Source of the DNA: Saccoglossus kowalevskii
Lineage: Eukaryota > Hemichordata > Enteropneusta > Harrimaniidae
NCBI RefSeq assembly: GCF_000003605.2
Contig: NW_003114957.1
Coordinates: 342,950 to 362,958 of the forward strand
Direction of reading: 5' to 3'
DNA: 20,009 bases
Shown: positions 883-14,631 of the stretch, in pieces
Numbering within the stretch: position 1 is the stretch's first letter
Layout of the letters: every line of letters starts with the position of its first letter
Notes under the pieces: model-generated
Told to the model about the DNA's origin: nothing
Databases searched by the model: none
Seen by the model: the letters and a program-made list of their open reading frames with translations, nothing else
Translations under genes and position numbers: made by a program

Positions 883-2022
883 TTAGGTGAAAACCAAAAG
901 TGTTTTTATTTTCCCGAAAATGTGGGCAGTCGCAGGATAGGTATCAGTCAACCATTTGTCACCGCACATAAAATCAACCGAGTAGTTATTTTATACTGAT
1001 GAAAAAACGAATTGTAACTCAATTTATATTAAGTGTCACCTAATAACAGTACAAAATAATTGGATCTTGTATTGAAATCTAGTAACAATTCGATGTAATG
1101 AGCACAAACACTGGAAGACGTGTTGCAAACTGCGCGGCCGATTGATTGTGAACAACGATATAATGGCTTCCTTTTCTTGGTAAATTGTTTATAACTGTAG
1201 TAACCCACGCTGCACGCCGGATGTCGGGAAATCCTTTGTTTTATAATCCAGTTGCACGCCCCCACTTTCTAAGTTTAAGTCTATGGTGAAATCGACGGAG
1301 CTCCTCTTAGAGCTCCTTCGAGGATATGGTAGCTCCCTCGAACTCCGCGGATACCGGCCCGGAACCCACTGGTTTGATTTAGATAACATCCCGACATGAT
1401 GGTTTACAAAAGATTAGTCGTTACATGTGGGGCTGTGAAACACAGGAATAACGATAATATTGCCATTACAGTAGCGATTTATTTAACGTGTTTGGCTATC
1501 ATAGAGAAGAACATCTGTATATGAGTACTGGGTTTGTATTTATCGATGTCCTAATGTTGCAGCTATACATTTTTGTCAATTTCTTTCCGTCATCGTCTAA
1601 ACTTTATTATATTTAATAATGCTACGCACCAGTAGTAGCATTTATTTCACGTTGAATTGTTTGCTTATTTTGTACGTGGCGAGCATGCTTTATAACGATT
1701 CAATGTTACATCCGTTATGTAACCGGAACTCGAAATAAAACAAATAAACACATATGAATGAGTTAATTGCCGTTTTGGCTATTTATAGAATACATGTTAA
1801 GCGTCAGAAATGGTTATTCTCTATACCAGTATGAGTGTCCAAAATGGAATGACGGAAAATTAATACAAAGAAAACGATTGAAAGAGCAAAATTATTGGCA
1901 TTTCGTAAAATTAAATTTGCGGATTAAAATAGACTAATACACTGTATATATCCTTCTTAAGAGACGTGCATATTATCCCATTCATTTGCTCTAATGTCAA
2001 CAATTATTCAGTATCATGCTAT

Positions 2023-2032
2023 GGGGGGGGGG
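2023..2032. repeat. G10 homopolymer in copy A
   Basis: Ten consecutive G between ATGCTAT and TAAACAATATGC. The same position in copy B (6869-6881) has thirteen G, so this is a length-variable tract at a homologous site. Confidence 0.9.
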
Positions 2033-2943
2033 TAAACAATATGCACACATTTAAATCAACATTTTTCTCATTTCCAAACAAACTACATGCAAAACAAAAT
2101 ATCGACACAATACAATTAAACAGTTTAATACAATTAAATACAATACAACTAAACTTTTCCGTAAAGTATTTAGATGTAGGATGTATCAAAAACAAGTTAA
2201 AATATGTTGGACAAACTAGAACCACAGTAAATAGAACGCATGATTCGTAAACTTTCCAATTAGAGAAAAGAGGCATGTAATAGGGAGGGGGGTATAACGA
2301 CGAATCCATGAAATAAACGACCAAGTACGATAACCTGTAATTCTGTTGTTATTGTTGGTTATTTAGTACCATATATCATCGTTGTATGTTTCCTGCACTT
2401 TTACAGAAAAACAACACTGCGTCACGGTACCAGTACGTGTACATTAACACTTGAATTTCCCACACAGCTGTTACATACATCCTATTATTTATAACCCACG
2501 AAATGAACCCAAATACCTTTGTTGAATAAAAACACAATGAATGGTATCGGTATGTAAATTATTTTCACGTTTTCATATGCTTTGTCTATAAAAACAAATA
2601 ATGTATTTACCAGAGAATATTATTAAACAACGTTTATAAAAAACGTTTATTACAGCCTTGGAATTGCTGAATATATTATCTTAAATTTATAGTCTCGTCC
2701 CCGTAACTATTTAACAAATTATGAGTGTTCTAGAAATATAGATGGAATCAAATGTGAATTATTTTGGCGATGGCACTACGAATAAATTGTAAAAGGAATA
2801 TTTAAATTCTCACTTGAAAACATTAGAAGTTTTAAATGATTTTATAATGGTTATGCCAAATGAATGTTACACCAATTTTGTGATACATTGTTAATAACTA
2901 ATTTTTTAGTAAACTGCCCCGCGCACGGAAACGGCTTTTAATC

Positions 2944-3300
2944 TCGCTCTAATTTCAGATAAACAATTATGCCTTCGATAAATTACTATTTGAATGTTAC
3001 AAAGAAATTGTCAGGGGAGCTTAGAAATTACGAATGACAGATTCTGCGTTACTTTGAAGAAACTGCTTTACGAAAGCATGATAATAAATGTGTACTTTAG
3101 TGTACTTCACTCTCTAATTTCAGATAAACAATTATGCTTTCGCGAAGTTGCCAATGAGATGCCGTCTACGAATTGGCACTGCAATATCGCCAAGAAATTG
3201 TCGTGGGGGGGGGGGGGGCTAAGAAATTGCGACTGCGTTGCCACACAGACAGATTCTGCGATAAGAAAGCTAACAGTACACATACACAGTAAGGGAAATA
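2944..3300 (+). repeat. Internal two-monomer sub-repeat in copy A
   Basis: A segment beginning TCTAATTTCAGATAAACAAT and including an AAGAAATTGTC...G-run...TTAGAAATT core followed by CAGATTCTGCG occurs twice in succession, at about 2950-3065 and about 3111-3290 (period about 165 bp). The second monomer carries a 14-G run at 3205-3218. A 123-codon plus-strand frame (2994-3365) runs through both monomers, but the equivalent frame in copy B is interrupted upstream of the shared part. Copy B has the same two-monomer arrangement, so the internal duplication came before the large one. Confidence 0.65.
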
Positions 3301-4317
3301 ACCGTTTCCAACAAAACCACATACTTATTACCCATCTAATTTTTCAAAAAAGCACATATTTTTAATATGTTAACCGAAAAGACTAATATTTATATCTGGA
3401 ATTTGTAAATTGTTCAAGACCGCTGAGTCGGAATGCTGAGTCCAATGTGCTAAACGTGTGTGAATATTCTATCTGTAAAAATGTACCCGCCCCTTTTTTA
3501 CATAGGCTGGTCAACCGGTTATGATTACTGTCACCTGCAAGTGAATAATTTATTAAGATGCATTTTTATTTCTATGTCTAAAGGTACCAGCAATTTATAG
3601 TTTGTTGCGTAACCGAATTAATAAATTTCAACTTTTTTGTACTAAATGTTGCCGGGTGTTTATGCCGGATATCAACTCAACTCAGTGATACACATTTCAT
3701 GTGCACCCACATACTGTAACAGCATGTCGCACGTGATGCACCTATCACCATTACCAAATTTGTCGTAACAAAGTGTTCTAAGGACGATGCTGACTTAATT
3801 TTCGTTTACTTTTTATTTTTCTAATTTAGCGGATTTAGTGGAATTTAATTACTTATTAACAAAAATACCGAAATTAAAAGACAGTGAATAAATATTGCGT
3901 AAACATTAATTTAGTAACATGTAGATTTTGTTTGTATTTTGCATTAAACACTCGACGTTACCACAGACCACAATGAATGTGTAAGTTAACAACACTAAAT
4001 TGATGTAAATAATCCAATAATTGAAAGTAATCCTTTATGTATTTGAAAATATTGAAACTCAATGCTGCTATATACCAGTTTATATAATAATTTGTATTTA
4101 GTTGTAGTTAATATCGCATGAGTGTTGATTTCTCCAAAGCCATTTTGTCTCAGCTGATTTGCCGAGTGGTCTCCCATCACACAACGCTGTTTCTTCCTAA
4201 AGTACTGTATTGTTGCATATTGCATATTTATTTAGTGAGTTAAGCTAGTAAGATTACCCATATATCAATGAGAATTTAATGTTGTCACCGCCTAATACAG
4301 TAGTAATTATGATCACG

Positions 4318-4440: not shown

Positions 4441-5969
4441 CGTAAGTAAGTTGGAATAGCCCGCATTGAGTTTCTGGAGTGCGTGTGTGGCAGGGTGACG
4501 CGCGAGGCAATTTGCCGGGCAACAATGAATTGTCCTTCCCTCTTGTTGCGTGATTTAATTAATTATTTCGCGCGTCCAATTTTTGATTATTACTCAGTAG
4601 AGATTTTAAATAAATTCGTTGAATTGTTATGAAATGCAAATTAGTTTCATCGTAAGAGAGTGATTCCGGACTCATATTAAACACTCGATGCTGGAGAATA
4701 TCCAGAGTTCTTGACCTGATAATCGCAAATTAACCAATCAAAATGGTGGATGATGCCAACGTGCTCAAATTAACATAGCTTATTTAAATACGTTAATGTT
4801 ATTGAACGCAACGCAGAAGAGATTTGCCGATATTGTAGTAAACTGTTTTGGCTTGGATTTAGATAGGAAAACAGCATGATTTTGTATTAAACAATAAATT
4901 AGTTGTTTTAAAAAAATAAACTGACCGTTTGAAAAAATAATTTAACATAGTTTATAGTGATAACAGCTCACTGTCGAAACGAAGCTTACCCATTCACGCT
5001 AGCCACGATAAAAATCATACTCTTGAATAGGCGTCAATGACTACGATAAAATTTAAATTAAACTATATTAGCCGTCCGGGATGATTTAAATGTCTAATTT
5101 CGCCAAAATATGTAATGAAAACGCGATTTCTTTTATTTTTTAAACTAAACTTACAAATTTACGGCAGAATACAGTACATTGTAAGATGTACATGACATTT
5201 GTTTAAAGAGCTTTTATTAGTAAACATATTTACCTATCGACCCACGCCAGTCAAGCTGTGGACTTTTCCTTTTCACTTCATACCTGCAAAAAAGTTAATT
5301 TACCTAATTTGATGGATATGTGGATATTATGTTTATGTATGCAATGTGATGCAGTCATGTAATGTGAATGCCTGGCCACACAACGCAAACTTGACTTTCA
5401 ACTGCTGGGTATTTACATTGCGTGACCATATTCGGTCAACGAACTTTAAATTTTGAGGCATTCAGTGGCAGTGCATTTCCCGGGTGGCAATGTGAACATC
5501 AACTAATTTCAACAAATTTCAATGACTTGAAAGGTTAATAAAGAATATCGAACAAGTTTTCCTTGTAAGTCTCGTTGTAGTGAGCAATCGAAGCAGGAAG
5601 TTAGGAAAATTTTAGAATTATGAATTTAAAATATAGACTAGCAAAACTAAAATACGCGAGTATCCTTGAAAATAGTATGATTTAGGTGAAAATACCATAA
5701 TGCAAACAACAAGTGTTTTTATTTTCCCGAAAACAACCGAAAATGTGGCAGTCGCAGGATAAGTATTAGTCAACCATTTGTCACCGCACATAAAATCAGC
5801 CGAGTAGATAATTTATAGTGATGGAAAAACGAATTGTAACTCCCCATATATTAAGTGTCATCTAAAAGTATAAAAAATGGGTCTTGTATTGCATTCTAGT
5901 GACAATTCGATGTAATGAGCACAAACAGTGAAAGACGTGTTACAAACTGCGCGGCCGATTGATTATGAA

Positions 5970-5977
5970 TGACGTCA
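5970..5977. promoter_or_regulatory. Full CRE-like palindrome in copy B
   Basis: TGACGTCA matches the consensus binding site of CREB/ATF bZIP factors. It lies about 2.5 kb upstream of the predicted sulfatase start. The homologous position in copy A (about 1148-1160) has no such site. An 8-mer match alone does not show function. Confidence 0.25.
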
Positions 5978-6695
5978 TACGGCTTTCTTAGCTTGGTCAT
6001 TTGTTTATAACCGTAGTAATCCACGTTGCACGTCGTGAAATCCTTTGTTTTATAATACAGTTGCCCGCCACTCTCTTTCTAAGGTCTACGGTGAAATCGG
6101 TGGAGCTCCTCAGTGCTCCGTGGATACCGGGCCGGAAACCGCTGATTTGATTTTGCTCACATCCCTAACATGGTTTACAAAAGATTAGTCTTTACATGTG
6201 GGTTTGTGAAACACGGGAATAACGATAATATTGCCATTACAGTAGCGGTTTATTTTGACGTGTTTGGCTATCATACTGGAGACGAACATCTGTATATTAG
6301 TACAGGGTTTATATTTGTCGATGTCCTAATGTCGCTATACATGTATATGTCAATTTCTTTCCGTCATCGTCTTAACTTTATTATATTTAATAATGCTACG
6401 CACAAGTAGTAGCATTTATTCACCAGTCAGTAATTTAGTGATGTCACCATTTCGTTTGGAACGGATAGTGAAAATTAAGGGACGCTGTGCGTTGAATTGT
6501 TTGCTTACTTTGTACCGTAGCGAGCATGCTTTATAAATATTCAGTTATGTAACCGGAACTGGAAACACATCTTCCTCGAAATAAAACAAATAAATACATA
6601 TGAATGAGTTAATTGCCGTTTTGGTTATTTATAGAATGCATGTTAAGCTTCATAAATAATTATTCTCTATACCAGTGTGAGTGTTCAAAATAGAA

Positions 6696-6703
6696 TGACG
6701 TCA
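6696..6703. promoter_or_regulatory. Second CRE-like palindrome in copy B
   Basis: Another TGACGTCA, about 1.8 kb upstream of the sulfatase start. Copy A has TGACGGAA at the homologous position (about 1851), so the full site exists only in the gene-proximal copy. Confidence 0.25.
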
Positions 6704-6868
6704 AGTTAATATAAAGAAAACAATTGAAGGAGCAAAATTATTGGCATTTCGTAAAATTAAATTTGCGGCTTAAAATAGACTAATACACTGTATATATCCC
6801 TCTTAAGAGACGTGCATATTATCCCATTCATTTGCTCTAATGTCAACAATTATTCAGTATCATGCTAT

Positions 6869-6881
6869 GGGGGGGGGGGGG
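6869..6881. repeat. G13 homopolymer in copy B
   Basis: Thirteen G at the site homologous to the ten-G run of copy A (2023-2032). Confidence 0.9.
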
Positions 6882-7755
6882 TAAACAATATGCACGCATT
6901 TACATCATCATGTTTTGCAGCTTCCAAATAAACTTCATACAAAATAAGATATCCACACAATACAATTAAACAGGTTAGCAAAACTTTTCCGTAAATTATT
7001 TTGAAGTAGGATGTATCAAAAACAAGTTACCATAAGAAATTAAAATATGTGGGACGAACTAGAACCACGGTAAAAAGAACACATGATTCGTAAAGTTTCC
7101 ACTTATAGAAAAGAAGCGTGTAATAAGGAGGGTGATATGACGATGAATACATGAAATAAACGACCAAGTAAGATAACCTGTAATTCTGTAATTGTAATTG
7201 TTGGTTATTTAGTACCATATATCATCGTTGTATGTTTCCTGCACTTTTACAGAAAAACAACACTGCGTCACGGTACCAGTACTTATGTATTAACACTTGA
7301 ATTTCCCACAGCTGTCACATACATCATATTATTTATAACCCATGAAATGAACCCAAATACCTTTGTTGAATAAAAACACAATGAATGGTATCGGTATGTT
7401 AATTATTTTCACGTTTTCATATGCTTTGTCTATGAAAAACAAATAATGTATTTACCAGAGAATATTATTAAACAACGTTTATGAACGTTTATTACAGCCT
7501 TGGAATTGCTGCTGAATACACTATCTTAAATTAATAGTCTCGTCCCCGTAACTATTTAACAAATTATTAGTGTTCTAGAAATATAGATAGAATCAAATGT
7601 GAACTATTTTGGCCATGGAACTACGAACAAATCGTAGAAGGAATATTTTAAGCATGAGAAGTCTTTAATAATTTTATAATGTTTATGCCAATTTTGTAAT
7701 AAATTGGTAATAAATAATTTCTTAGTAAACTGCCCTGCGCACGGAAACGGCTCTT

Positions 7756-8110
7756 TATCGCGCTATAATTTCAGATAAACAATTATACCTTCGAGAAATT
7801 GGAATGTCGTCTAGAAATTGTCAGGGGGGCTTAGAAATTGCGAAAAACAGATACAGACAGATTCTGCGTTACTTTGAAGAAACTGCTTTACGAAAGCATG
7901 ATAATAGATGTGTACTTTAGTGTACTTCACTCTCTAATATCAGATAAAACAATTATGCCTTCGCGAAGTTGTCACTGAGATGCCGTATAGGAATTGGCAC
8001 TGCAATGTCGCCAAGAAATTGTCGTGGGAGGGGGGGGGGCTTAGAAATTGCGACTGCGTTCCCACTCAGACAGATTCTGCGTTAAGAAATCTAACAGTAC
8101 ACATACATAG
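7756..8110 (+). repeat. Internal two-monomer sub-repeat in copy B
   Basis: Same arrangement as 2944-3300. A TAATTTCAGATAAACAATTAT segment is followed by an AGAAATTGTCAGGGGGG core at about 7811, and then by a second monomer starting near 7931 with a G-rich run at 8026-8039 (interrupted by A at 8029). The short open frame at 7980-8216 keeps the same phase across the G run as in copy A. Copy B has one extra A in GATAAAACAATT, which breaks the longer frame that is open in copy A. Confidence 0.6.
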
Positions 8111-8490
8111 TAAGGAAAATAAACCACATATTTATTACCCATCTAGTGTTTCAACAAAAGCACATATTTTTAGTAAGTTAACCGAAAAGACTAATATTTA
8201 CATCTGGAATTTGTAAATTGTTTTCAATGCAAACTATTGCTCAGATGTCAGGACCGGAATGCTGAGTGTGAATATTTTATCTGTAAAAATGTACCCGCCC
8301 CTTTTTTAACATAGGCTGGTCAACCGGTTATGATTACTGTCACCTGCAAGTGAATAATTCATTAAGATGCTCTTTTATTTCTGTGTCTAAAGGTACCAGC
8401 AATTTATAGTTTGTTGCGTAACCGAATTAATAAATTTCAACTTTTTTGTACTACACGTTTATTCTATTAATAGCACACTACAACGATAAG

Positions 8491-8548: not shown

Positions 8549-11500
8549 ATGAGTAGTCTACATTGCATAGCTGTTTTCCTGGCACTGGCAGTTGTCAGCA
8601 AGGTGAGTAACAACCGGCAACGTTTAGTAACATACCAATTTACTTGATTGGTTTAATTTGACGTCCTATATTCAATTAAGAACGATTCCGTTGTTTTAAA
8701 TACTCCCGGTTAATTGGTGAAATGTTTTCGCCGCAGACTAGTTGGAGAAAATATTGAGTTTATTCGTGATATCTTATTTTGTTCAAATTATAATGCACCT
8801 TCGACCACGGAGGGTTCCGTGTGTATTGGACGATACGAGTGTTTACGTCCAATGAAAAGTAAACATTATAGCTGATGAAGACTTTGAGTTTGGCATGGGC
8901 AATCTATCGGTTTTGTAACGACTGTTATTCTTCAAAAGGTTCTTAGGAACTATTCGCCATATTTTTGACTATTTGGAATCACTGTGCATGGTGATTCTCC
9001 GTGTCCGGCCATCCCATATTTTGGAATCGTCCCACCATTCAATAAAAATAACACGATATCGTGTTCTTGTTGTATTACTGTTTCCGTGGGGTGTTTAGTG
9101 GATATATTCATGCATACATTGTTAGTTTTTTGAGTTTGTGTTTCATTTTAACTCGACATATGTTTCTCAAATAAACTCTGTTCAAAATTCTCCATGGCGA
9201 TGACTGGTATAGCATTTATCTGATAAATATACCGGTATTTTCTTAGCCAGAAACAGAGGTTAATTTTTAGCATAAATTTAAAAAAATGCAATTTTTTCTA
9301 TAATATTATAAGATTTTTTCACTTAACAAATTCATGTTGCTGCAGATTAAGAACATTTTATAGTTATTGTTAAGCTCTTTGAATTGACAGTGAATATAAT
9401 ATTACAGTTGGCGATGTGATAAAACGATGTTGGATTTGTCACATTTAACACATTTTTTTTATTTCTTTTGTATTACAGCCCAGTATTGCTGAAGCAGGTA
9501 CGATTATTTTTTTTTTCATTTTGGGAGACCTTCGCTAAGTGTCGAAGGATATTTGCATATTCTAAACTTGAAATCAACAAGTTTTGGAAGTGCGAACTGT
9601 CACCATTCGGTTATAGTATTTGACAACACTAAACGAGTAGTTTCGCTACCAGACGTTCAGAACGATACAGAAACTTGGATGTTTCAAATATCAAGAATTT
9701 TTTCAATGCCAAGTTTGCTAGATGTCTGGTAGAATATAAGTATTGTTATGACGATGATGTCAAATCAATTAATTATTTACAAAAGATAAAAAATGTAAAT
9801 TATTCTCCGTAAGGGATATAGTTCGTTTCGTTCGTTTCAAACTGCACACTTAAAGGAAAGTTTATATAATTAGGTATTAACTCTTCACACTCAGTATGTA
9901 ACAAACACGATGATTGGTCGTTTAAGAATTGTAGTTTTCCATGACAGGTGTTGATGGCTAACTTGTTTTATACGTAATATTTTCTATTTGTATCGATTGG
10001 CAAACTGTAAACTAGCGAACATGTTTCATGATTGAGCGTCAACAAGTATTATAGGTTATATCATAAGTTATATATGTTTTAATGTTGAGTTATGTTTTCA
10101 TGTTGAACTCCGTTTCAATGTTATACATTTTTTTTATTTTTTCATTCATTATTTTTATCAGATCAACCGCATGTTATTCTAATATTTGTGGATGACATGG
10201 GATGGAATGATGTACATTGGCACAACCCTGATATCGCAATGCCCAACTTGATGGATCTCGCCGCTGATGGCGTCATATTCAACCAATCATATACCCATCC
10301 AACATGTACACCGTAAGTGATAATATTGTTAATGTGCATGGAATTTAGTTATAAATTGTTCAGTCAAGTTCAATATAACAGCAATAAAAGTCAATGTAGA
10401 ATTTCAGCGTCTTGCTTCTATTTTGAATTATGGGTTCATTGACATCATGATAGCATACAGGTTAATTTCAGTATCTAGCTTCAATTCTAAATCCTGAGTT
10501 GGTACCGTATGATATGATACGCAATATACGTCTGAAATATTATACCATATATAGATGTTTATATGTAATTCTTTAGATCAAGAGCTGCTATGATGACGGG
10601 ATTGTATCCTTTCAAAACTGGAAATCAGGTAAGAATTACTTTCAACGAAATACAATGTATCTGGCTTCGCAGCACATATTTACTGGAAAATAACGATACA
10701 AATTTACATTTTTTAAAATAACACTAACATTGTTTCATTAGTTAAATAGAAAACCTAAAAGAAATTCTGTTCATATATATTTTACAGCATCAAATGGTGT
10801 TCAACCTTCATCCTAGTGGGGTTCCATTGGAATTCAAGCTATTACCAGAAAAACTTAAAGAAGTTGGATACTCTACTCATATGGTAGGAAAGTAAGTAGA
10901 CCATAGCATTTGTTTGCTGTACTAAAGATTATGCGATTGCGATGCTGAGAGCCTGATCTAATTCTCAGCTTTACATTCTTATGCTATTTGTGTTTTTTAA
11001 ATAAATTTTTAATAAAGGATATCCTTCATATAAGCTTAGGCAATTTAAGAAGATCTTTTTCAGTGGCCAGAGTTTTTTAAAACAAGTTGTCGCAAAGGCA
11101 GGAACCTCAAAAAATAATTTGATATCGGTAAATAACCTCGACCGCAGGAATGTCATTACACGTGGTTGCTAATTTGACACAAAATAAAAGTCACACGCAA
11201 TGATAGAAAGCAAAAATATACAGATACAGTCAATAATATTTCTATGTATTTCTATTATGTATTTCTAATTTCTAAATTTGTTTTTAGATGGCATTTAGGG
11301 TTCTGTAAAGATGAGTATCTACCAACAAATCGTGGTTTTGATTCCCACTATGGTCTGTGGACATTGGGTGTCGGTGATTACGATAAAATGAATGGAGTAC
11401 TCTGTAAGTTAACTATTAGTAAAACAATATACTTAATCATAAATATATGTCTAAGTATATGACAGTGGTGATATTGTGCCATAGTTATGATAACACGTTT

Positions 11501-14500
11501 TCGGGAACGGGTCGACTGAGACAACGATTTTATTCAGTTCACTCATCTTTGAATTGATTTGTCATTCTAGCTCCTTCAGCAGGATATGATTTCCGTGATA
11601 ACATGGGAGTAGTGCCAAAAAGTGACGGTTATCTTGCAGTGAGTATGAATAATATTATTGTCATAAACCAATGTCAAAACACGCATTAAACAGAAACGTA
11701 TATTGTTTACAACTAATTAGGTAAAGCACGGTGCCACGCTTTCGAGATTCTGGTAAAAACTTGAAAACAATAAAATAATAAATCGACAAATTATATCATT
11801 ATATCTTTCTCATACACAGTTAATGCTTGGTGATAGAGCAGAGCATATCGTAAATACACATTACCCAGGAACTCCACTTTTTCTTGCGTTTACTCTGGAC
11901 ATCCCTGCTAAGCATCTGGAGGTAACTATCTTATTTTGTTGGTTACAGTGAGCTAACAACAATAGTATAATTAACCTAAATTTAATCACTTGATGGAAAT
12001 CCTTCTTTGGTACAAAATGTGTATATCATGCATGTACTTGTATACATTTATGTTTGTGTGTTATTTCCTCAAGATTCCAGAAGAGTATGAAGAAAAGTAT
12101 TCTGATATCGAAGATGATAGAACTAGGCAATTTTATGGTGAGTAAAGTAATTCCATATAAGCATAGTTCTATTCATCCCTGGCCTAGGACATTACATACG
12201 TCATCAAGTGAACGTCGAAACATTAACCATAATGCATTCGTATTTATTAGTACGATGTTAAATAACACTATGGGTCCGCCTTACTTGTAATAAATGAATG
12301 CCCCGTTAAAGTATGTAAAATTAAAAATTTAGTATTTTCACTATTGCAGGAAAGTTGACTATGATGGACGATATAATTGGCGGTGTGGTGGATGCGTTGA
12401 AGAACCGTGGAATGTATGACGATTCGCTAATAATATTCATAGGAGACGTAAGTGACCAACGTCTATTATGTTCAGTTAATTTAAAAACGTGCTGATATCT
12501 AGTCTATGACTATCTGTAAATGTCTGTGTCATGTTTTGTCCAAATGTGGAGACTGATTTAGATGGATAGTTATCATCGTTTTATTTTGAATGCTACAGTT
12601 TTACAAGGCATCGCCTACTTTAACTTTGCGTGATTAATTTGATATATTTTAAATTCTAAACCTCCTCGTTTACCATAATCTATCTTCCCGTGTAGATATT
12701 TAAGAATTTCCACTCTCAGATTTCATAATTTAATAATAATATAGTTGAGTGGAATTCCAAGTTTGTGTCGTCCATATATCCATATGACTATATTTATTTA
12801 CATAGAATGGAGCGTTATCGTCTCAATCGGGCTCCAACTATCCATTCCGCGGTATTGCTGGAACGATGTTTGAGGGCGCTACTCGCGTACCATCTATTGT
12901 CAGTGGGAAGGGAATAAAGAAGACTGGATATGAAAGCAATGAGTAAGTTAACTGTAGTAATTACAATCTCACAACGATGATCACGAGTATGATTGAAATC
13001 CCAAGGTTAATGCACTGTCTTAGTCAGTGTCAATGACAATATATAACATAAAATACCCTTCTAAAATGTGATGCTAAGCAATTCAGAAGACATGTACCAG
13101 GGCCAGCTAGTCGCGTTGTTTTATACAGTTTTAAATTTTCAACCATTCTCAGATAACATATAAGTTAATTTCCACTTGGTTCATAGGTTATACAGCATAG
13201 TTGATATACACAGAACAATCCTTGATGTGGCTGGAGCTAAAGCTGGTAAGTTAACACAAAAAGTCAATAAATTTTAGGCATGTTGTTTCACGACCGAATG
13301 TTAAATAGTGGACGTTTTAATATTTACATCGAGGTTTCTATAATATGTTTCGTATTGTATTTGACAGAGCCTGAACTTGACGGTTTAAGTATGTGGCCTA
13401 CATGGTCAGAAGATAAACCATCGCCAAGAAATGAAATCCTCTATAATATCGATGATGATCCAGTGTCCCCTGGTGCTGCTATCAGGTAAACAGTGATATA
13501 TGTATGTATGTACGTTAGTTGCGTATACAAAACTGTTTTCATTTCCGGTTTCTGTAGAATAATTGAAATTCTACTTTTTATTGTATCATTTAGAAGAACC
13601 GAATAATTGTTCTAACAAATGATAAAGGTGTGTGTGCTGCAAAACAATGGTGGAATATAACATATATGCATACAATCATGTCATGAATTATGTTTTGTAT
13701 GTTTTTTTAGGATCGGCGACTATAAACTGATTACAGGACACCCGGATTTATTGTATCCATATCGGGACATCAGTTTAACAGGTAAACACCCACAGAATTT
13801 TCGATTATAGTGTTATCAGAACCAACGTATCGCGGACGTATTTTCGATAGTGAAGGCAGTGGAATTGCATTTACTATGCCTCAATATGATTACACGATCT
13901 GACGCATGTCAATGTATATTTATTTCAGATAACTATTACAATTACGGTGACGCCCCAGCAAGCGGATTGCCAAGTACAGACCAACAATCACACGCACCGG
14001 CTCCACAGAACGTAGAATACTTGTTCAATGTCGTTGGTAAGACGTTTTTTTTTCAAACAAGTGAACAAACATAAGTACAGACAAACTATTAACAAATAAA
14101 CACCCATACCATGACCACTACAGCATAGCGTCTTGTTCATGTAAGCAGACGCGCGCATTAGAGGAAACAGATACTGATTCATAACAAAATGTTCCCAAGC
14201 AAGTTTTCAGTTTCACAATTTTGTTAAAATAGTGAATGTTTTATTGATTCAATTCTAAGGTGATTATTTAAAAGTTTGAAATTGTTTGTAAATTTCCTGA
14301 ATTGTGTCATGAAATGTTACTGTCACCTTATCGCATGGTCAAATACGATTATCGCAAGTTCAACAAAATAGTCGCCATTTGATATAATATTTCCCGAAAC
14401 ATGCCCCAATATTGAAATAAATTTACAAAGACTTACTCATGTTCCTTTTTCAATGCAGTTGACCCAGAAGAAAGGAACGACATCTCCGCTGATCATCCAG

Positions 14501-14631
14501 ATATAGTACAGGATTTACGTGATCGATTGGATGAACATCGTAAACTGCTAATTCCACCAGTAAACCAAACAACAGAGCTAGCCGGTGCAGCTGGGAATTT
14601 TAATGATGTATGGTCACCTGGTTGGTGTTAA
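8549..14631 (+). CDS. Secreted arylsulfatase B/I/J-like protein, 16 exons, 497 aa
   Basis: Sulfatase of the alkaline-phosphatase-like superfamily, expected in the secretory or lysosomal pathway, where relatives remove sulfate esters from glycosaminoglycans. Seen: a leader peptide (about residues 1-24); metal ligands D35-D36; formylglycine motif C73-T-P-S-R77; GKWHLG with K127 and H129; a P-x-x-R-G-F-D stretch at 139-145; PEEY at 224-227; D276-N277; FRG...EGATRVP at 290-305; [11 protein letters not shown] at 360-370; DPEERND at 442-448. The last two resemble the ARSB/I/J branch more than ARSA or GALNS. N-glycosylation sequons: N65-Q-S and N476-Q-T. An in-frame TAA at 8522 supports this start. 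Length is slightly below human ARSB. Odd: residues equivalent to ARSB H242 and K318 are A218 and A294, and the mature chain has only three cysteines (73, 133, 497). Family is near certain; catalytic activity is doubtful. Confidence 0.95.
9479..9497 (+). other. 19-nt micro-exon (exon 2)
   Basis: This exon encodes PSIAEA plus the first base of D25. It is flanked by a strong acceptor (pyrimidine tract, TATTACAG) and the donor GTACGA. It links the hydrophobic leader in exon 1 ([18 protein letters not shown]) to the catalytic domain that starts at [12 protein letters not shown], so it should carry the signal-peptidase cleavage region (A22 or A24). Skipping it would shift the frame, because 19 is not a multiple of three. 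Confidence 0.75.
10305..10307 (+). other. Catalytic cysteine codon (formylglycine precursor)
   Basis: TGT encodes C73 of C-T-P-S-R, the motif recognised by the formylglycine-generating enzyme (SUMF1 type). In this family that cysteine becomes the nucleophilic formylglycine. R77, which contacts it in relatives, is encoded in the next exon. Confidence 0.9.

Follow-up and report, generated by a model that had tools for sequence, protein, structure and literature searches.

A family of arylsulfatase B-type genes in Saccoglossus kowalevskii with both sulfate-binding residues replaced

The window gene

The window (i.e. the whole stretch of DNA analysed here, 20,009 nucleotides from Saccoglossus kowalevskii) contains a gene of the arylsulfatase B (ARSB) type on its plus strand. 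In the spliced model the gene extends from 8549 to 14631, comprises 16 exons separated by introns that are all GT-AG, and encodes a protein of 497 amino acids without internal stops. The exon models of this gene, and of its relatives elsewhere in the genome, were built by a purpose-written script. Upstream lies a large direct repeat (888–3650 and 5701–8459) made up of two blocks, 81% and 86% identical, the second copy of which stops some 90 bases 5' of exon 1. The window has no match in Rfam at the gathering threshold.

Exon 1 (8549–8602) supplies the start codon and a hydrophobic segment that resembles a signal peptide and suggests the protein is secreted; five of the seven other copies on the window contig have a counterpart of this exon (L010, L011, L012, L029 and L030). 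Exon 2 (9479–9497) is a mere 19 nt long, and has counterparts in six of those seven copies, and in L014. Exon 3 (10162–10312) encodes the metal ligands D35 and D36, and C73, the cysteine from which formylglycine (FGly) is made; exon 4 (10577–10628) encodes the remainder of the CTPSR motif, including R77. Exon 5 (10788–10891) ends within the codon for K127, and exon 6 (11288–11403) encodes H129, as part of GKWHLG. Exon 7 (11571–11638) is followed by exon 8 (11820–11921), which has the P207–E222 stretch at its end and, inside this, A218 (GCT, 11907–11909), K219 (11910–11912) and H220. Exon 9 (12074–12137) precedes exon 10 (12350–12447), at the end of which is the metal ligand D276, and exon 11 (12806–12942) contributes N277, R291 and A294 (GCT, 12857–12859). 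Exons 12 (13187–13245), 13 (13368–13485), 14 (13711–13781) and 15 (13929–14036) lead to exon 16 (14459–14631), with the C-terminal WSPGWC and the stop codon. An initial annotation of this DNA had placed D35, D36, C73, R77, K127, H129, D276, N277 and H220 correctly, as judged by the spliced model.

Domain and active site

Residues 27–339 match the Pfam Sulfatase domain (PF00884) from one end of the profile to the other (1–301 of 301), with 163.1 bits against a cut-off of 25. The closest solved structure is that of human ARSB (PDB 1fsu), which phmmer matches with E 4.9e-88, and a profile HMM from five members of the clade described below matches with E 3.2e-107. Similarity of this order suggests that the fold has been kept. 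The maturation motif, C-x-P-S-R, is present as CTPSR at 73–77, and the metal ligands Asp, Asp, Asp and Asn are all present, as D35, D36, D276 and N277.

Table 2 of PMC4014121 sorts the active-site residues of ARSB into metal binders (Asp53, Asp54, Asp300 and Asn301), formylglycine binders (Arg95, Lys145 and His147) and sulfate binders, and this last class consists of His242 and Lys318, and nothing else. The pair corresponds to H229 and K302 in ARSA (PMC7404199 Table 3; PMC4014121 Table 2), and a survey of the family (PMC5066984, section 8) finds the His conserved in 99% of its sequences and the Lys in 96%. In the window gene, all seven of the listed metal- and formylglycine-binding residues are kept, along with the Cys, and both of the sulfate-binding residues are missing: A218 occupies the column of the His (ARSB His242), and A294 that of the Lys (ARSB Lys318). 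These placements come from phmmer and profile HMM alignments to 1fsu, and from a profile–profile alignment to five bacterial sulfatases, and none of these sequence, profile and profile–profile alignments has a gap across either site. The two alanines proposed in the initial annotation are borne out, then, by three types of alignment, as is the 18-residue stretch, P207–P224, that it had aligned to ARSB without gaps, and its description of the replaced side chains as sulfate binders agrees with Table 2 of PMC4014121. Going by the residues, the loss in the window gene is a selective one: the grip on the sulfate is gone, and the rest of the listed active site is kept.

Alternative exons encoding the His or the Lys were sought elsewhere in the window by tblastn, using two canonical His-exon peptides, two canonical Lys-exon peptides, and exons 8 and 11 as queries. 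All that emerged were weak, chance-like matches—the best, at E 0.007, had stops and left the Lys uncovered—in a search of limited power, the canonical His peptides having missed even exon 8.

Relatives in the same genome

The animal's own 572-Mb genome contains at least 19 related genes, including the window gene. Eight are on the window contig (C843), where the seven other copies lie at about 230–308 kb; other relatives occur on C2048, C166, C2543, C1967, C4507 (two), C3655 (three), C2602 and C367. A further candidate for the clade, C3897:79872, was left out of the family counts, and only part of the 118 exon matches to PF00884 in the genome were used for loci. The relatives have the same exon plan as the window gene, as far as they have been modelled. 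Five of the 18 have all 16 exons (L010, L011, L012, L014 and L029), two of these with stops, and the remaining ones are partial, in part because the contig ends, or the stretch that was taken. L018, L019 and L021 are incomplete, and are counted for residues and omitted from the dN/dS calculations and the tree; L022 was used in both, with six exons missing.

Neither sulfate-binding residue is found in any member of the clade for which there are data, and neither has been regained. Site 218 is Ala in 13 members and Gly in five (18 of 18, with the window gene), and site 294 is Ala in 12 and Ile in four (16 of 16, again with the window gene). The initial annotation proposed searching related genomes for orthologues with the same two changes; genes that have them turned up within the same genome, as a trait of the whole family. 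Residue 219 is Lys in all 18 members with data, giving the clade the motif P-[AG]-K. Residue 220 is variable; eight of the 18 have Ser, Phe, Ile or Ala there, and H220, once suggested as a partial stand-in for the lost His, is unlikely to be one. Sequencing error, or chance, was considered as the cause of the replacements and is ruled out, since the His is missing from the window gene and from 17 relatives alike.

The remainder of the active site has fared differently. D36, R77 and K127 are kept in all 18 members with data, D276 in 17 of 17, and N277 in 16 of 16. Five of 18 members have Glu in place of D35, and two of 19 have replaced H129, by Asp in L015 and by Asn in L017. Cys73 is kept in 18 of 19, and is Ser in L020. 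L020 is a distant member of the clade; the change is in exon 3, at the start of its locus, and its residues at sites 218 and 294 are Gly and Ile. Retention of the core is not by itself proof of catalysis, or decisive proof of function, because 32 of the 42 columns common to the window protein and five bacterial enzymes are invariant across the clade as well. The pattern of conservation lies between that of a strictly conserved enzyme and that of a freely drifting relic.

Several of the copies look broken. L011 and L012 on C843 have one in-frame stop each, and L013 has two; the model of L030 lacks exon 4, and that of L017 has a defective exon 5, the shortened version of which, as picked in the model, accounts for the stop there. 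L018 has four exons in the stretch taken, and L019 has six. All 16 exons are open in the window gene, L010, L014 and L029. In L010, at 5856–6318, the last coding exon is tandemly duplicated, the second copy being in two pieces in different frames.

Other sulfatases and the maturation enzyme

The control sulfatases from the same genome (L001–L008 and L031–L046) have the His at every one of the 24 loci, and the Lys at 21 of them, the exon for the Lys having not been found in L033, L043 and L046. The patterns used for the controls required His or Lys, and hence were blind to other residues; the controls also include near-copies, L031 with L038, and L034 with L035. Prokaryotic relatives have the His at all eight loci and the Lys at all seven with data, and the double loss was not found among these eight, a small sample from one scan with two short peptide patterns. 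One canonical copy, L033, has a Lys at the +1 position together with the His. The reverse complement of another ARSB-like canonical locus, L032, has in an intron, at approximately 1900–3300, a long minisatellite-like repeat, two frames of which are open.

The formylglycine-generating enzyme family, PF03781, has eleven exon matches in the genome, on C540, C300, C2607 and C4451, and given these the cysteine of CTPSR could, in principle, undergo maturation.

The mitochondrial contig, C4830 (L057, 17037 bp), has cox1 on the strand opposite to that of the adjoining genes, which we take to be nad1, cox2 and atp8. In its genes ATA stands for Ile, AAA for Lys and TGA for Trp, and the one site informative for AGA has Ser. 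This code fits NCBI tables 24/33 and, tentatively, suits a hemichordate best, as judged against conserved residues.

Phylogeny and selection

A tree was made from 146 columns around the two sites, both sites included, and rooted at its midpoint. The 16 rows from the clade are monophyletic in it, with support of 100/99, on a stem 0.87 changes per column long, and 13 canonical rows form a separate group (92/89). Five bacterial rows are in the tree, and one of these, L050, adjoins the canonical rows. With several long branches and a midpoint root, the tree says little except that the clade, as sampled, is monophyletic.

Comparisons by the NG86 method of the window gene with the eight relatives closest to it, of which seven are on C843 and one is on C2048, give dN/dS of 0.05–0.20, at dS of 0.14–0.23. 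The losses are therefore old, and the protein has been kept by selection. The ratio rises to 0.26 against L014, and to 0.33–0.51, at dS of 0.64–0.78, against the six most distant members tested. Two of the marks expected of a pseudoenzyme are found here: catalytic residues have been lost, and selection on the protein has been maintained. L011, L012 and L013 have dN/dS of 0.05–0.07 against the window gene in spite of their stops. With ratios so low, the breaks look recent; there are intact copies as well.

Interpretation

Because sister genes in the genome lack the same two residues, the window gene is probably no chance defect, and would encode a sulfatase that has evolved away from the standard form. 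What the initial annotation claimed at its core—a sulfatase domain with the formylglycine motif kept and both substrate contacts lost—is on firmer ground than it had been put. Its label of ‘sulfate-binding’ pseudo-enzyme is the weak part. The pair that has gone is the sulfate-binding pair, the whole of that class, and a gene that lacks it does not naturally suggest that sulfate is bound in the usual pocket.

What might the losses do? In the mechanism as presented in PMC4014121, the FGly diol attacks the sulfur, and the acid that protonates the leaving group is uncertain; the candidates listed are His211 and Lys375 of PAS, the second hydroxyl of FGly, and water, and PAS His125 is named as possibly the base for release of the sulfate. 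A protein that lacks the counterparts of His211 and Lys375 would have a poor hold on the sulfate and would be short of two candidate acids, and its turnover should drop strongly. On balance, we favor the reading that this is a secreted ARSB-type protein from an old, tandemly expanded and lineage-specific family of pseudosulfatases, in which turnover has been lost or is very weak. In the stem of such a family, the equivalents of ARSB His242 and Lys318 would have been replaced by small or aliphatic residues (Ala or Gly, and Ala or Ile), and the domain, the calcium site, the formylglycine site and the maturation motif retained thereafter. Hydrolysis of sulfate esters would have disappeared, or nearly so, and the protein would have become a non-catalytic component of the secretions or matrix, binding a glycan or some other ligand by way of a remodelled pocket or its outer surface. 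The double loss in all clade members with data, against controls that keep the His throughout and the Lys at 21 of 24 loci, supports this reading; so do the monophyly of the sampled clade, the low dN/dS, the fact that the lost pair is the whole sulfate-binding class, and the further erosion of H129, D35 and Cys73 in distant members. We count the PF03781 matches in its favor also. Several things count against it: the formylglycine and metal core is kept nearly throughout, although a protein with a purely structural role could do without it; K219 may make up for part of the lost charge; and dN/dS is 0.33–0.51 against the distant members, and several members look broken.

The near-complete retention of the formylglycine and metal residues, together with the presence of PF03781 genes, would fit proteins that are still FGly enzymes, but altered ones, in which K219 supplies the charge and the substrates are sulfate esters that have a good leaving group, or esters of another oxyanion. 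The Lys in 18 of 18 members favors this. So do two precedents in PMC4014121: BcPMH, which differs at two of the FGly-binding residues with the sulfate-binding pair unchanged, and human SGSH, in which Arg takes the place of the Lys, a sign that the pocket can be retuned in evolution. An invariant Lys is commonplace here, however, accounting for nine of the 19 Lys columns in the window protein; L033, with its +1 Lys plus the His, shows that such a Lys need not be a replacement; and H129 has gone from two members. We regard such an enzyme as unlikely, the pseudosulfatase reading being preferred both to it and to the weak sulfatase considered next. More specifically, and quite doubtfully, K219 may replace the pair outright, as a charge relocated in an FGly/calcium enzyme, or in an FGly-dependent covalent binder, of new specificity in at least 19 genes of one animal lineage.

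Perhaps, instead, the proteins are ordinary sulfatases of a feeble kind, with a turnover that is reduced yet physiological on abundant sulfated glycans. The metal- and FGly-binding residues are complete in the window gene. Single alanine mutants of ARSA at these positions reportedly retain 1–26% of Vmax (Waldow et al. 1999), and this residual activity counts against the pseudosulfatase reading as it counts for a weak sulfatase. Those were single mutants, and here both residues have been lost together, at positions conserved at 99% and 96% in the survey (PMC5066984). Neither residue has come back in any clade member with data, and H129, the equivalent of the possible base for sulfate release, has gone from L015 and L017. 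We judge the weak sulfatase to be rather improbable. That the family is simply decaying, a set of pseudogenes without function, is suggested by the stops in L011, L012 and L013, the exon defects in L030 and L017, and the few exons of L018 and L019. This is very improbable: four genes (that of the window, L010, L014 and L029) are open through all 16 exons, and dN/dS is far below 1.

If the pseudosulfatase reading is true, we have a sulfatase in which the pair that grips the sulfate has been lost family-wide with the formylglycine apparatus intact, and a natural means of separating the roles of the formylglycine and calcium from those of the His/Lys pair. The idea that the matrix of marine deuterostomes contains ‘arylsulfatases’ that are not enzymes would become testable, and annotations of ‘arylsulfatase B-like’ in such genomes may sometimes name proteins that are not sulfatases at all. 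The open literature, judged by titles and the beginnings of abstracts, yielded no paper on the present animal family, which is weak evidence of absence.

Comparison with known systems

Sea urchin embryonic arylsulfatase is enzymatically active. It has been reported to be a component of the extracellular matrix, and a role in the matrix has been proposed for it. Sea urchin sulfatases have been assayed with artificial aromatic substrates, according to PMC5066984.

Possibly inactive sulfatases are not new. In PMC5066984, certain FGly sulfatases of Lentisphaerae and Planctomycetes are predicted, from the loss of a catalytic residue, to be perhaps inactive. The nine bacterial sequences concerned have lost a different residue, the Arg of the motif (PAS Arg55), whereas the window clade keeps this Arg and has lost the sulfate-binding pair, instead. 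Human sulfamidase, SGSH, has a natural change at the same conserved Lys, to Arg282 (PMC4014121). Unlike the window protein, SGSH keeps the charge, and the His, and is an active enzyme.

The nearest group within the same genome, to go by the tree, is that of the canonical ARSB-like genes, L031–L045. These 15 loci have the same domain and, unlike the window clade, have the His in 15 of 15 and the Lys in 13 of 15, L033 and L043 being the two in which no K exon was found; the His is also present in L046, which is less similar. ARSB itself (N-acetylgalactosamine-4-sulfatase; 1fsu) has the same metal and formylglycine residues as the window protein, and the two are colinear almost to the C-terminus. 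They part company at His242 and Lys318, each of which is Ala in the window protein, such that where ARSB has x-H-x, the window clade has P-[AG]-K.
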